Source of the DNA: an uncultured Bacilli bacterium
GTDB lineage: Bacteria; Bacillota_I; Bacilli_A; RFN20; CAG-288
Direction: 5' to 3'
DNA length: 64,000 nucleotides
Assembly: GCA_944349335.1 (NCBI GenBank)
Contig: CALVMW010000001.1
Coordinates: 1 to 64,000 of the forward strand
The translations under genes and the position numbers were made by a program. This document shows positions 23,450-28,580 of this stretch, one piece after another (position 1 is the first letter of the stretch; each line of letters opens with the position of its first letter). The notes under the pieces were generated by a model. It worked only from the letters and a program-made list of their open reading frames with translations. It was not told where the DNA came from and did no database searches.

Positions 23450-24634
23450 ATGAGATTTCTTGATAATGACTCTAGTTACTCCCTCGTAGCAGATTTTAAT
23501 CTCAGTATGAATGATGAAGAAGTTTTATTGCTTCTCTATTTGCCGATGATGGGTGGTAAAGCCTATTCTCTTTATCGCTATTTTTTATCTTCGAGTCTAT
23601 TAAAAGAAGAAGAATATTCTTTTTTAACAATAGACCTTCTTTCGGATTTAGATTATGATCAAGAAACCTTTTTAGATTCACTTCGTCGACTTGAAGCTTT
23701 AGGTTTGATCGAAACTTTTTATCGTCAAGCAAGCCAAAATAAAGATAGTCATTATATATATAAGCTTTTCCCGCCTGCCACTCCTCGAAAATTCTTCGAT
23801 GATATTATCTTATCATCCCTTTTAAAGAAGATGGTCGGCGAAAAGAGGATGGCACGCTTAAAAATGATCTTTTTAAAAGCTAAGGATAAAAAACCTAAAG
23901 GTTATAGCGAATTAACTTCTTCTTTTAAAGAGGTATTTTCTTTAGAAGATATCGAAAAAGAAGAAGATAGTGAAATGATAAAAGATAAGAATTATAAAGC
24001 GATTGCGGAGATCGATTTAGCTACTTTAAAGAAAGCTTTAAAAGATAGGAAAATACCTTTATCAATATTTAGTAAAAATATAAAAGATGTCAGAGATTTA
24101 ATCGCATTATACATGATTCCTTTAAATGAAGGAGTGGAAATTATTGAAAAAAACATTGATAGTGCCGGTGTTTTTTATTTCGAGGAATTTAAAAAGGATA
24201 TTCGTTCGTATCGTTCATATTTAAGGGATGATAATAAAAAAGATGATAATTATAAAGGCGGTAAATTCTATCAGATATTGACTACTATCTCTCCAGAACA
24301 ATATCTCTCTATTAGACTTAATGCTAAAGCTCCCGCATACATGTTAGATGAAATTGAAAAGATTAAAAAGGAAACTGGATTACCAAATGCTTTAATCAAC
24401 GTTGTTTTAGATTACTCATTTAGAAAGACTGATAATCGTTTTGTAGAATTGTATATAGAGAAGGTTGCTTATTCTATTCTTTCCAATAATATAACTTCAC
24501 CATATGAAGCGATGACTTTCTTAAATGAACAGGATTATCGTATGAAAAATGAAAAGAAAGTAAAGGTAGATAATAAAGGCGAGGAGAAAGATGATATCGA
24601 TGTAAAGTCTCTCCTTGATAAGGTGATATCATGA
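23450..24634 (+). CDS. dnaB: Replication initiation protein DnaB (Bacilli type)
   Basis: DnaB of Bacilli (not the helicase) works with DnaD and DnaI to load the replicative helicase at oriC. The 394-residue product begins with a winged-helix-like domain (about 1-110) containing LLLYLPMMGGKAYSLYRYF, matching the family's ply-x-x-hiG-x-x-A-x-x-LY pattern, and ends with a DnaD/DnaB C-terminal domain (about 285-360: LPNALINVVLDYSFRKTDNR). The tail is charged. A candidate extended -10 (TGTTATCAT, 23403-23411) precedes it. The stop overlaps the dnaI start (ATGA). This dnaB-dnaI pair is typical of Bacilli. Confidence 0.85.
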   Translation: MRFLDNDSSYSLVADFNLSMNDEEVLLLLYLPMMGGKAYSLYRYFLSSSLLKEEEYSFLTIDLLSDLDYDQETFLDSLRRLEALGLIETFYRQASQNKDSHYIYKLFPPATPRKFFDDIILSSLLKKMVGEKRMARLKMIFLKAKDKKPKGYSELTSSFKEVFSLEDIEKEEDSEMIKDKNYKAIAEIDLATLKKALKDRKIPLSIFSKNIKDVRDLIALYMIPLNEGVEIIEKNIDSAGVFYFEEFKKDIRSYRSYLRDDNKKDDNYKGGKFYQILTTISPEQYLSIRLNAKAPAYMLDEIEKIKKETGLPNALINVVLDYSFRKTDNRFVELYIEKVAYSILSNNITSPYEAMTFLNEQDYRMKNEKKVKVDNKGEEKDDIDVKSLLDKVIS

Positions 24635-25587
24635 GCGATAACTTTAGCATTCATAAGATTACTTTTAATAAGAAGATTGAGTTAGATAGTGAATCATCAA
24701 ATCGTTTTGAAACTCAAGTAAAGGAGTTATTAAAAAAGTATCCATTAGCAAATAGAGCTATAAAAGACCTTTTGAAAACTGAAAAAACATTTAATAACTC
24801 ACTCGGTTATATATATGAATTTTTAGAAGATTATGCTATTTGTAATTCTTGTGAAAATAAATTAAATCTGTGCCCTAAAAAGAGAGTGGGTTTTAAATAT
24901 GAGCCTTATTATGATGAATATCAAGATATTATTCGCTTAAATGTCACTCCTTGTGTTCATTTAAAGTTAGTTGAAAGTATTTTAAAAAATATTGATCAAA
25001 GTTATGAGAATAAGAATTTAATTTATAAAGAAGGTATTTTATTTGCTAAAAGATTAAGAGAATATTCTAATAAATCTACTCTTTTAATTACCTTTAAAAA
25101 ATTTGTTAGAGATTTAAATTCTTTAAAAGAAAATAAAACTATTAAAGGTCAAGCACTTTTCTTTATCAACGGTGAAAAGATAGAACAATCATTTTCATAT
25201 TTTTTAGTTTACTATGCTGCCTCATTAGGAATTAAATCTTCGCTTATAACTTTTGTGGACTTCTTAAAAGATTTAAATAGTGAGAAATTTGAAGATCAAA
25301 ATTATATGAAAAGATATGTAGAGCATTTAAAATATTGTCCATTTACTATATTTGAGAATATTGATTGTTTCCCTACTATCAGTGATAAAACGATGATGAA
25401 TCATCTTATCCCTTTATTCCAATATCGTAAAAATAAAGGCTTACTTACTTATTGCACTTTATCAACTTCTTCTTCTCTTCTTACTATAGGTAAAAAGATA
25501 GGCCATTATAGTGAAACGGGTACAAAATTAGGTGAGATTTTTACTTCACTATTTGAAAAACAAAAGATAACAGACCTCGATATATAA
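24631..25587 (+). CDS. dnaI: DnaI-like helicase loader with lost P-loop
   Basis: DnaI is an AAA+ ATPase that loads the replicative helicase. The N-terminal zinc-binding domain is recognisable (Cys71, Cys74, Cys81, then Cys108/His110), and position after dnaB is standard. The C-terminal domain aligns by order with DnaI, but the Walker A segment reads NGEKIEQS (180-187) instead of GxxGxGKT, and Walker B reads FTIFENIDC (238-246) instead of LMLDDIG. ATP binding is therefore unlikely. The frame is intact over 318 residues, so this looks like a selected pseudo-ATPase, not a decaying gene. Start overlaps the dnaB stop. Confidence 0.78.
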   Translation: MSDNFSIHKITFNKKIELDSESSNRFETQVKELLKKYPLANRAIKDLLKTEKTFNNSLGYIYEFLEDYAICNSCENKLNLCPKKRVGFKYEPYYDEYQDIIRLNVTPCVHLKLVESILKNIDQSYENKNLIYKEGILFAKRLREYSNKSTLLITFKKFVRDLNSLKENKTIKGQALFFINGEKIEQSFSYFLVYYAASLGIKSSLITFVDFLKDLNSEKFEDQNYMKRYVEHLKYCPFTIFENIDCFPTISDKTMMNHLIPLFQYRKNKGLLTYCTLSTSSSLLTIGKKIGHYSETGTKLGEIFTSLFEKQKITDLDI

Positions 25588-25592
25588 AAAAA

Positions 25593-25625
25593 TACCTCTT
25601 AGAAATCAAATATTTCTAGGAGGTA
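25593..25625 (+). promoter_or_regulatory. Hairpin sequestering the Shine-Dalgarno of the C39/membrane gene
   Basis: Positions 25593-25606 pair with 25612-25625 in a 14-bp stem with one T-G wobble and a 5-nt loop (CAAAT). The right arm contains the whole Shine-Dalgarno AGGAGG (25618-25623) of the gene starting at 25629. The left arm (ACCTCTTAG) acts as an anti-Shine-Dalgarno. No T tract follows, so a terminator is unlikely. The structure should block ribosome access unless opened. Confidence 0.75.
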
Positions 25626-25628
25626 GTT

Positions 25629-26858
25629 ATGGTATATCAAAGCGATAAGAATCAATGTGGTAAAGCAGTAGTTAGAACTATTTTAGTTATTCATAATGAA
25701 GATGAAAATTTTCAAACATCTATACTAGAATCGGATTGCTCAAATTTTTTAGAGATAAGAGATGAATTAGAAAGAAATGGGCTTTTTTATTCTGGCTATG
25801 AAATTAAAAGGGTTGAGCTTATAGAAAAAAGAAAATTACCAGCCATCGCACAAATTAAAAACGGTGAAAAAGATCATTTTGTTGTCATAAAAAAGATAAC
25901 TAAGAAAAAAGTTAAAATATTTGACCCTGAATATGGCGACATCGATTTTAAACATGATGAATTTTTATCGATTTATAGTGGCAATATACTATTAAAAGAG
26001 CATGAAAGTGAAAAGAAAAAAGTTAAGAGATTATCCTTACTTAAAAGAAAAGAAAAATTATTGTATGGTTTAATCTTTTTAATTGAAACAATTTCTATGG
26101 CAGTATTTTTATTAACTTTAAATGAAAATATACCCTTATTTTCAATGATATCTTTATTTATGGCGATAATTGCTGTCTTTTTACAATTCATTTTAAACAC
26201 AAAAGTCAGGAAGAGGTTAAATAAAGAGATATTTATTCCTTACATGAATTTAACTAAAAATAAAGAGGATTTCTTTTCTCTTTCAAAAATTTTAGATCTT
26301 GAAGTTAAAAGATTTTCAAATATTGTTTCCTATAGTGTTTTACTATTGAACTTGCTATTTTTATTTACAGCCAATGGAATATACGTTTTTTTGATTGCAA
26401 TCGTCAGTTGTGTCTTAGTCCTTATCGAATTTATGACTAAAAAAGAAACTAATAAAGTTACTCGTTATTGTTCTATTAAAGAAGACACATATTTAAATAT
26501 GTTAAGTACTGATCCATTTAATGCTAGCAAGTATTTTATGCTCGCAAGTGAGAAGTCAAACAAACTGCTTTTAAATAAAGTGGTAATGACTATTTTTGAA
26601 ACAATTGTCTTAACTCTTTTTATTATCCTACAAATGTTTTTAGTCAACTCTTTCTCTATTGCCAATTTCCTCGTCCTTTTCTTTTTATCGTTTTCACTAA
26701 TTCGTGTCAGTAAGAGTGTTTTATCATCTTATTTAGATGAGAGTGAGGAAGTTAAAAAGATAAATTCACTTTCTTTTCCATTAGAGAAATTCTTTAGTAA
26801 TGATGCCCTTTTAAGTTATACTAATAATAGAGGTGGGCATTATGAAGAAAAAAAGTGA
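25629..26858 (+). CDS. C39-like peptidase fused to six-helix ABC-exporter-like membrane domain, no ATPase
   Basis: The 409-residue protein starts with a C39 cysteine peptidase domain (about 1-125): oxyanion Gln4, Cys10 in NQCGKA, His83 in DHFVV and Asp99 in FDPEYG, all in the order and spacing of bacteriocin-processing peptidases. Six membrane helices follow (about 144-164, 168-188, 231-247, 250-268, 318-338, 344-360), grouped as in an ABC exporter. The nucleotide-binding domain of peptidase-containing transporters is absent; only about 45 polar residues follow the last helix. No leader-peptide or bacteriocin gene is nearby. It sits in a core replication/translation cluster, in the place phoH often takes. 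Its Shine-Dalgarno is inside a hairpin. Confidence 0.7.
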   Translation: MVYQSDKNQCGKAVVRTILVIHNEDENFQTSILESDCSNFLEIRDELERNGLFYSGYEIKRVELIEKRKLPAIAQIKNGEKDHFVVIKKITKKKVKIFDPEYGDIDFKHDEFLSIYSGNILLKEHESEKKKVKRLSLLKRKEKLLYGLIFLIETISMAVFLLTLNENIPLFSMISLFMAIIAVFLQFILNTKVRKRLNKEIFIPYMNLTKNKEDFFSLSKILDLEVKRFSNIVSYSVLLLNLLFLFTANGIYVFLIAIVSCVLVLIEFMTKKETNKVTRYCSIKEDTYLNMLSTDPFNASKYFMLASEKSNKLLLNKVVMTIFETIVLTLFIILQMFLVNSFSIANFLVLFFLSFSLIRVSKSVLSSYLDESEEVKKINSLSFPLEKFFSNDALLSYTNNRGGHYEEKK

Positions 26859-27708
26859 GGTCACATTAGATTATTTAGATGAATGTCACTTAGATAAAAG
26901 TTTAGAGAAGATGTTTCTTTTAGTCGCTAGTGAGACTTTAGAAAGATTTTCTCTTGGCAAATGCACTATATCATTATCGTTGATCAGTGAAAATAAGATG
27001 CGAAATATGAATAAAAAGTATCGTAATATTGATAGAACGACTGATGTTCTATCTTTTGCTTACTTAGAAAATGATGATGAAATGAGCGATATTAAGGATC
27101 TTGGCTGTATTTTAATCGATCCTAAACGCGCCAAAAAACAAGCCGAAGAATTTTCTCATCCTTTTAAAAGAGAATTATCTTTTTTATTCATTCATGGTAT
27201 TCTTCATCTACTAGGTTATGATCATCAGAATGAGGAAGATAGTGAAAAGATGTTTGCACTCCAAAACGAAATCTTAAATAATTTAACTATCGATTTTTAT
27301 ACTGATCAAAAGAAATTAAAAAAAGAATTAAAAATCGCTCAATCGATGGCTATTACCCCTTATTCTCACTTTAATGTAGGTGCAGTATTGATCACAAAAA
27401 GCGGTGAATATATCCGTGGCTTTAATATTGAGAATTCTTCATATCCTGCGACTATATGTGCGGAAAGAGTAGCGATCTATTCAGCCTATTCTCGCGGTAA
27501 TAACAAAGATGACTTTGTCGCTATGGGCCTTATCACTTCTTCAAATGAAACTTCCACATGCTGCGGAGTTTGTCGACAAGTTATGATCGAATTATTACCA
27601 AGTTATATTCCTGTTTACATTTATAATGATAAAATGGATAAAATGCTGAGGCTCACTGTCAAAGATATGTTACCTTATGCGTTTACGGATGAAGATTTAA
27701 AGTCATGA
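26842..27708 (+). CDS. Fused endoribonuclease YbeY and cytidine deaminase
   Basis: A single 288-residue frame joins two enzymes usually encoded separately. Residues about 1-150 are YbeY, the metal-dependent endoribonuclease of rRNA maturation, with HGILHLLGYDH (H-x3-H-x5-H). Residues about 160-288 are cytidine deaminase, with the zinc motifs CAERVA and CCGVCRQ and the substrate loop FNIENSSYPATI. In Bacilli these genes are neighbours, ybeY-dgkA-cdd-era; here dgkA is missing and ybeY and cdd are joined. ATG 26842 has GAGGTGGG as Shine-Dalgarno; an upstream in-frame GTG would overlap it. The start overlaps the previous gene by 17 nt. Confidence 0.9.
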   Translation: MKKKSEVTLDYLDECHLDKSLEKMFLLVASETLERFSLGKCTISLSLISENKMRNMNKKYRNIDRTTDVLSFAYLENDDEMSDIKDLGCILIDPKRAKKQAEEFSHPFKRELSFLFIHGILHLLGYDHQNEEDSEKMFALQNEILNNLTIDFYTDQKKLKKELKIAQSMAITPYSHFNVGAVLITKSGEYIRGFNIENSSYPATICAERVAIYSAYSRGNNKDDFVAMGLITSSNETSTCCGVCRQVMIELLPSYIPVYIYNDKMDKMLRLTVKDMLPYAFTDEDLKS

Positions 27709-28580
27709 AAAAAGTAGGATATGTTTGCGTCTATGGACGCGCTAATGCTGGTAAGTCAACAATAATCAATGGTATTTTAGGTTACCAAATTCTTCCGGTT
27801 TCTTCTAAACCCCAGACAACTAGGGATCAGGTTCATATCATTTATAATGATGATGACTCGCAGATAATTTTTACTGATACTCCTGGTATTTTTAAACCTC
27901 ATGGACGTTTAGGTTCAGTTTTATTAAGAGAAGCTGAAAGTGCAAAAGAAGGTGTCGATTTAATAGTTTATGTTATCGATAGTTCATTGCCTCCTGACTT
28001 TAGTTTAATCGATAAATTAAATAAACTCGATATACCAATTATTTTAGCGTATAACAAAATAGATTTAGTTCGCGCTAATATAGGAGAAGAGAGATTATCA
28101 CGTTATCTTGACCATTTTGTAAAAAAACCTGAAGTTATCCACCTTGTTGCCAAAGAAAGATTTGGCTTGGATGATCTATTAAAGGCGATCAAAGCAAAAC
28201 TTCCTGAGGGTGATATCTATTATCCTTTAGATATTGTTACTGATAGACCTAAAGAATATATTATCGCCGAGTTTATTCGTGAGAAGTGCTTACGACTTTT
28301 AGAAAAAGAGATACCACATTCTATTTATGTCGATATTAAAGGTGTGACTGAAAAAGAAAATGATATGGAAGTTGTCGCTGATATAATTGTTGAAAAAGAA
28401 TCAGCAAAATCTATTGTTATCGGTGATAAAGGTAGAATGATAGCAAGAATTTCTCGCTATTCTGAAAAGAAAATATCTGATTACTTTGGAAAAAAAGTCT
28501 ATCTAGATTTGCATGTGAAGTGCATACCTGATTGGCGCAATTCATTAGTTTATCTGCGCCGTTTTGGCTTCGATGAATAA
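27705..28580 (+). CDS. era: GTPase Era
   Basis: Era binds the 3' end of 16S rRNA and checks 30S maturation. The 291-residue product has P-loop GRANAGKST, switch region TTRDQ, DTPGI, G4 NKID (YNKIDLV) and a C-terminal KH domain (about 205-290, with the IGDKGRMIARI loop). Length and architecture are normal. Its start overlaps the ybeY-cdd stop by 4 nt and its end overlaps recO, so it belongs to a tightly packed run. Confidence 0.98.
   Translation: MKKVGYVCVYGRANAGKSTIINGILGYQILPVSSKPQTTRDQVHIIYNDDDSQIIFTDTPGIFKPHGRLGSVLLREAESAKEGVDLIVYVIDSSLPPDFSLIDKLNKLDIPIILAYNKIDLVRANIGEERLSRYLDHFVKKPEVIHLVAKERFGLDDLLKAIKAKLPEGDIYYPLDIVTDRPKEYIIAEFIREKCLRLLEKEIPHSIYVDIKGVTEKENDMEVVADIIVEKESAKSIVIGDKGRMIARISRYSEKKISDYFGKKVYLDLHVKCIPDWRNSLVYLRRFGFDE

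Follow-up and report, generated by a model that had tools for sequence, protein, structure and literature searches.

An ATPase-less C39 peptidase with an exporter-type membrane domain encoded in front of ybeY in uncultured Bacilli

Introduction

What does a protein do that joins a peptidase to an exporter-type membrane domain and carries no motor? The question is raised by a gene, here called X, in a stretch of 64,000 nucleotides (the window) from an uncultured Bacilli bacterium of the GTDB order RFN20 (the order). A preliminary description of this DNA had presented the X product as a C39 peptidase joined to an exporter-like membrane domain without an ATPase, and had offered two options for it: a stand-alone membrane peptidase, or a transporter that uses a separate ATPase. 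For X and its homologues we computed the domain content, the conservation of the active site and of the locus, the ancestry, and the loss of the ATPase and of the loops on which it docks. The first option fits best, and X is probably an ATP-independent, membrane-tethered C39 cysteine endopeptidase, that is, a stand-alone membrane protease, as judged from sequence comparison and modeling. Four points go beyond the preliminary description: the descent of X from a PCAT at this locus, an ongoing erosion in sister families, an independent ATPase loss in mycoplasmas, and a hairpin over the ribosome-binding site.

Results

Domain architecture of X

Gene X is an ORF of 409 aa with an ATG start on the + strand (25,629–26,858), delimited as in the preliminary description and characterized by Pfam profiles, alignment, a structural model and a fold search. 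Residues 1–126 (25,629–26,006) constitute the C39 peptidase domain, identified by profile, conservation and a fold match to the peptidase domains of ComA and PCAT1: residues 2–126 match Pfam Peptidase_C39 (PF03412; E 7e-18) with 65.1 bits, well over the curated cut-off of 22. The catalytic Cys, His and Asp and the upstream Gln that had been read from the sequence as a C39 pattern are present as Cys10 (25,656–25,658), His83 (25,875–25,877), Asp99 (25,923–25,925) and Gln4 (25,638–25,640). No other C39 protein was found in the window genome.

The peptidase domain is followed by a six-helix membrane domain of the ABC-exporter type (residues 140–369; 26,046–26,735), for which the model and the fold search bear out the earlier assignment. 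A strict hydropathy scan detected five of the six helices. The AlphaFold model, built from 27 relatives (mean pLDDT 91), contains long helices at residues 140–163, 169–209, 212–248, 251–269/271–291, 296–339 and 344–369, and the top solved structure matching over the whole length is PCAT1 residues 12–483, which comprise the peptidase and membrane domains and exclude the ATPase (model residues 1–409, VIA Z 19.9, rmsd 7.1, 401 aligned; Foldseek E 2e-11). X thus has the C39 domain and the six-helix exporter domain that define the first part of a PCAT. It lacks the C-terminal ATP-binding domain with Walker motifs: about 40 residues remain after the last helix and Pfam ABC_tran finds no match in X, in line with the lack of Walker motifs noted in the preliminary description. 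That description had left room for a sequencing frameshift that hides an ATPase. This was excluded, since ybeY starts at 26,842 inside the end of X and the relatives listed are of like length (380–492 aa among the matches listed in the order-wide profile search). Self-cleavage at the ‘GG’ that several members of the genus carry in their C-terminal tails was considered and rejected, because in the window the codons for ‘RGG’ in the X tail are the Shine-Dalgarno sequence of ybeY-cdd (26,830–26,836).

Distribution and conservation

By profile search, X-type homologues occur in 254 of the 279 genomes of the order (49 of 56 genera) and in 143 of its 150 good-quality genomes, so the expectation that relatives carry the gene holds. 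They are divergent, with identity to the window X down to 15–22% in other families. Used alone as query, the window protein matched 34 of 59 relatives; in the contig search it recovered no relative, and the genus alignment recovered eight loci. Eleven genomes of the order without a profile match were followed up: four have a short C39 protein before ybeY, six have no detectable ybeY either, and in one the contig stops within ybeY.

The four most conserved positions among 127 aligned members (including one duplicate pair, L108 and L120, which are the same gene) are those of the C39 active site; counted over the sequences aligned at each position, Gln4 is kept in 120/120, Cys10 in 125/125, His83 in 126/126 and Asp99 in 124/126; the two replacements of Asp99 are F (L020) and E (L025). 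Averaged over positions, the commonest residue reaches a frequency of 0.42 in the peptidase, compared with 0.31 in the membrane domain. X is under purifying selection, with computed dN/dS values of 0.06–0.23 where they could be estimated: 0.06 for the peptidase of the L003/L005 pair, in which the membrane domain is saturated, and 0.23 and 0.12 for the peptidase and membrane domain of L029/L030. Broken copies were seen as well, X being split by a frameshift in G011 (L127, 4000–5225) and lying in two frames in G254 (L079); judging from the copy in G011, some members may be able to do without the gene.

The X locus

Of 126 distinct members, 102 carry X directly upstream of ybeY, with the end of X between −120 and +200 bases from that gene. 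For 18 of the other 24, no ybeY was detected in the stretch examined, which includes contig ends and short loci, and the remaining six show a larger gap or overlap, caused in one case by a frameshift. The genes 5’ of X vary (dnaB-dnaI, dnaJ, deoC) and those 3’ of it are constant (ybeY-cdd-era-recO-glyS-dnaG). The dnaI-ybeY-era setting reported for the window is accordingly one in which X is conserved in relatives, though the upstream genes vary. Rare breaks of the X–ybeY link consist of large ORFs between the two genes in two f5 genomes (L138, 7489–9606; L143, 7980–9611).

In the window, the end of X is overlapped by ybeY-cdd (26,842–27,708, + strand), and era, the downstream neighbour kept across families, follows at 27,705–28,580 (+ strand). 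YbeY and cytidine deaminase are fused into a single ORF here, as in many members of the window's family; other families encode them separately. Upstream of X, the gene in the dnaI position (24,631–25,587, + strand) matches no Pfam family at E<0.1 and has no Walker A by pattern, nor do its counterparts in 13 relatives examined; a helicase loader lacking ATPase motifs would be odd.

The preliminary description had seen no bacteriocin-like peptide nearby, and a simple pattern search for double-glycine leader ORFs indeed gave no hit in the window. The bacteriocin-leader family TIGR01847 was silent in all 279 genomes of the order and equally silent in all 14 control genomes. Because X sits in a ribosome-maturation setting, processing of L27 was considered as its job and rejected, as the window has a Prp-like gene (550–855) before rpmA that makes this role unnecessary; the window L27 carries the usual ...LQLFA-type extension. 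The names Prp and L27 are assigned here from the sequences rather than by profile.

A leader hairpin over the ribosome-binding site

A hairpin with a 14 bp stem precedes X (25,593–25,625, + strand), and its 3’ arm includes the Shine-Dalgarno sequence of the gene (25,618–25,623). Its fold has −18.1 kcal/mol and a z-score of −5.4, and none of 200 shuffles was as good. When the 48 bases up to the start codon were tested in the same way, the leaders of 17 f1 members had a mean z of −3.85, with 16 of the 17 below −2, and the ribosome-binding site was at least 75% paired in 15 of them, their sequences being quite different. For the 83 members from other families the mean z was −1.93 (39 below −2), and for control starts in the same loci (ybeY, era, recO, glyS, dnaB, dnaI and pyk) the means ranged from −0.85 to +0.16. 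The start of X thus looks like a controlled step in the operon. Some members have a T-run after the stem, and the hairpin may also terminate upstream transcription.

X descends from a PCAT at the same locus

Outside the order, the profile matches are mostly proteins of 570–760 aa. PCATs of 615–687 aa stand directly before ybeY-(cdd)-era-recO-glyS in f20 (L087, L093) and in genomes that read TGA as Trp (L090, L091), and further such cases were found; we label the TGA-reading genomes mycoplasma-type from this code and from the NCBIfam profile NF045998 of the Mbov_0121 family. In f17 genomes, PCATs lie some kilobases away from ybeY and do not adjoin it. With full PCATs found before ybeY-era outside the order, X can be understood as a PCAT that lost its motor.

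The peptidase tree agrees with this descent. In a tree of 69 peptidase domains, built on 125 residues and of moderate support, the PCATs of the locus and X form one clade (bootstrap 92), apart from the bacteriocin-type and most f17 PCATs, and X groups with its reduced forms (bootstrap 90; see below); the f17 protein L095 joins X at 73. The shared locus and the clade at 92 support common descent of X with the ybeY-linked mycoplasma PCATs. A tree built from as many as five neighbouring genes, with support below 50 at several inner nodes, places the whole order except L123 in one group (f1/f3/f5 and f2/f4/f6/f7/f8). L123 (f4) is grouped with the outgroup f17 and f2 is split, both probably due to long branches. 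On the simplest history, the ATPase was lost once, at the base of the order. We file X as an ATPase-less PCAT derivative: it is a PCAT by descent and lacks two of the defining PCAT features, the ATPase and the coupling helices.

Deletion of the coupling loops

In type I ABC exporters, coupling helices on two intracellular loops contact the ATPase. These are the places where X would have to receive a separate ATPase if it were the peptidase and membrane half of a split PCAT, with the nucleotide-binding subunit encoded elsewhere. The exporter fold retained by its membrane domain and the 53 ABC ATPase hits in the window genome are in favor of such a split transporter. However, both coupling segments are deleted. 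Only remnants are left of intracellular loop 1 (residues 209–213; 26,253–26,267, + strand) and loop 2 (residues 292–296; 26,502–26,516, + strand), as delineated by alignments and by the model, which places a turn at residues 210–211. The HMMER alignment of X with PCAT1 has a 13-residue gap at loop 1, and in 112 of 115 X proteins, including that of the window, the loop-1 segment counts 1–9 residues and the loop-2 segment 0–9, against 15–17 and 14–21 in 18 PCATs.

The exceptions are three f8 proteins (L102, L103 and L105) with loops of 17 and 14–20 residues. They look like an earlier stage in which the ATPase was lost and the loops were kept, and an ATPase partner is possible there. In two other f8 loci (L110 and L111), an adjacent orphan ABC ATPase gene convergent with X came into question; its neighbours are an importer permease and a binding-protein-like gene, L112 lacks it, and we take it to belong to an importer.

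No ATPase gene recurs beside X across the loci compared. In the window genome, the ATPase ranking covered 30 of the 53 hits (23 being without a locus); the most PCAT-like of these 30 are fused exporters of 593–708 aa, the best free one ranks 13th, and no PCAT-like orphan stands out. Furthermore, f2 and f4 lose the membrane domain and retain the peptidase (see below). Since the loops are gone in the lineage of the window, recruitment of an ATPase is unlikely there, and the second option of the preliminary description, a transporter with a separate ATPase, appears improbable.

Further reduction in f2 and f4

In f2 and f4, the slot before ybeY holds proteins of only 132–176 aa (L120–L124), and two more short C39 proteins were found elsewhere (L117, L119). 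A single hydrophobic helix at the C-terminus is present in four of these seven proteins; the other three are without one. Of the five that were scanned with Pfam, four score above the C39 cut-off and L123 falls below it, and the model of L121 (pLDDT 79.5) matches the C39 domains of ComA, PCAT1 and HlyB. When all seven are aligned, no column is invariant except Met1 and the Cys, His and Asp of the active site; the active-site Gln is lost in f4. The proteins form an erosion series from the PCAT to a peptidase with six helices, to a peptidase with one helix, and to the peptidase alone, which suggests that the pump and, ultimately, the membrane domain are dispensable.

The same columns bear on whether X cleaves anything. 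X could be a non-proteolytic relic whose C39 domain merely binds a partner and which persists near ybeY by operon inertia. Inactive C39-like domains exist, as in HlyB, whose C39-like domain is without activity; passengers are possible in conserved operons, and frameshifted copies of X occur. A mere binding domain, however, would not need the catalytic residues, and Cys and His never vary among the aligned members and, with Asp, are the sole invariants besides Met1 in the reduced forms. The low dN/dS and the persistence of X beside ybeY while its upstream neighbours change also speak against a relic, and we regard this reading as unlikely.

Decay of the ATPase in mycoplasma-type PCATs

Sixteen mycoplasma-type PCATs were aligned, and nine of them keep Walker A, signature and Walker B. 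The other seven (L090, L091, L208, L209, L210, L212 and L219) lost all three motifs and keep the Gln, Cys, His and Asp of the peptidase; the His and Asp of L225 were left out of the count as a chance pattern match in an N-terminal extension. L090 and L091 give no ABC_tran match at E 1, and NF045998 still spans their length. In the peptidase tree the seven form one group (97) that also holds the fragmented L211, so the decay in mycoplasma-type PCATs counts as one further loss. The PCAT of L211 lies in several pieces in its genome (G404).

Seven of the nine genomes with an intact ATPase (L213–L218 and L220) encode a small membrane protein of about 125–135 aa between the PCAT and ybeY, with one helix and a probable beta domain. 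Next to the seven motif-less PCATs, this protein is absent and ybeY follows within about 25 bases. An export accessory may have been lost together with the pump, although the correlation is weak, coming from one lineage.

Discussion

Proposed function of X

In the mechanism that we propose, the ancestor of the order, of the mycoplasma-type genomes and of a third lineage (f20) would have carried a PCAT in front of ybeY-era; the ATPase would have been lost in the order, and the coupling loops deleted afterwards in the lineage of the window. The peptidase would lie on the cytoplasmic side, as the topology of PCAT1 implies, held by a membrane domain of the exporter type that may now be an anchor, a dimer scaffold or a docking groove. 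With Cys10, His83 and Asp99 together with Gln4, X would cleave a peptide or protein, cytosolic or membrane-delivered, in a reaction that uses no ATP and involves no export. C39 relatives cleave after Gly-Gly or Gly-Ala, and the cut made by X may perhaps fall at such a site. Both the cleavage and the side of the membrane are what we infer for X. Export through its membrane domain without an ATPase is conceivable and finds no support here. The evidence suggests that evolution has retained the cleavage function rather than export in this group of uncultured gut bacteria.

More tentatively, and with somewhat greater doubt than trust, we propose that the C39 proteins in front of ybeY-era in mycoplasmas and their relatives might be a housekeeping processing protease. 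Rather than a bacteriocin, its substrate would be a core protein of the cell, or else a membrane or secretion intermediate; the ancestral export function would have disappeared on at least two occasions, once when the order lost the ATPase domain and once when the ATPase motifs decayed in mycoplasmas, and expression would be controlled by the leader hairpin that hides the ribosome-binding site. If true, this reading would account for the orphan C39 protein retained in the minimal cell.

That protein is JCVI-syn3A gene 0401, which probably belongs to the Mbov_0121 family and which, as we presume, adjoins ybeY. If it does, the erosion series predicts that its Cys is more important than its Walker A. 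According to Breuer et al. 2019, 0401 contains a C39 domain, neither JCVI-syn3A nor other mycoplasmas have a known double-glycine peptide, and the gene is listed as removable from model and transposon data (PMC6609329); being reported as removable counts against a protease of the X type. The same source tentatively assumes a lipoyl-peptide role, with import and transamidation, for 0401 (PMC6609329). X could by analogy be a C39-type acyl or peptidyl transferase, acting in lipoyl transfer as proposed for 0401 or like the C39-like CtaG, whose structures are among the fold matches of the L121 model. X has no import machinery left, however, no test result ties it to lipoylated proteins, and the reduced forms keep only a generic C39 active site; we give a transferase very little credence next to the membrane protease.

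Comparison with known systems

Among the open-licence papers listed by the literature searches, no description of an ATPase-less PCAT or of a C39–ybeY link was found. Three known groups resemble X in part. First, the stand-alone C39 proteases FapD and FilB, of functional amyloid and pilus systems, have no ATPase, as X has none, and match X weakly by profile (27–30 bits, far under the curated cut-offs of 330 and 475 bits). Unlike X, they are without an exporter membrane domain, and their gene context is another one. Second, PCAT1 of Clostridium thermocellum (4RY2, 6V9Z) and the bacteriocin PCATs share with X the N-terminal C39 peptidase and the exporter membrane domain; X differs in having no ATPase, in the deletion of both coupling segments, and in that no double-glycine peptide adjoins it by the pattern search of the window. 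Third, the Mbov_0121-family mycoplasma peptidase ABC transporters (NF045998) occupy the same slot directly before ybeY(-cdd)-era and are sister to X in the peptidase tree. X matches this profile only partially (34.4 bits, below the curated cut-off of 500), and the locus PCATs themselves reach only 99–327 bits against the same cut-off. The Mbov_0121-type PCATs have 611–721 aa and an ATPase-shaped third domain, with motifs intact in nine of 16 and lost in seven, a domain that X is without. Together with them, X and its reduced forms make up a rare case of an ABC exporter dismantled stepwise at one fixed locus, and the series points to the protease, not the pump, as the selected part of the C39 protein of mycoplasmas and JCVI-syn3A.
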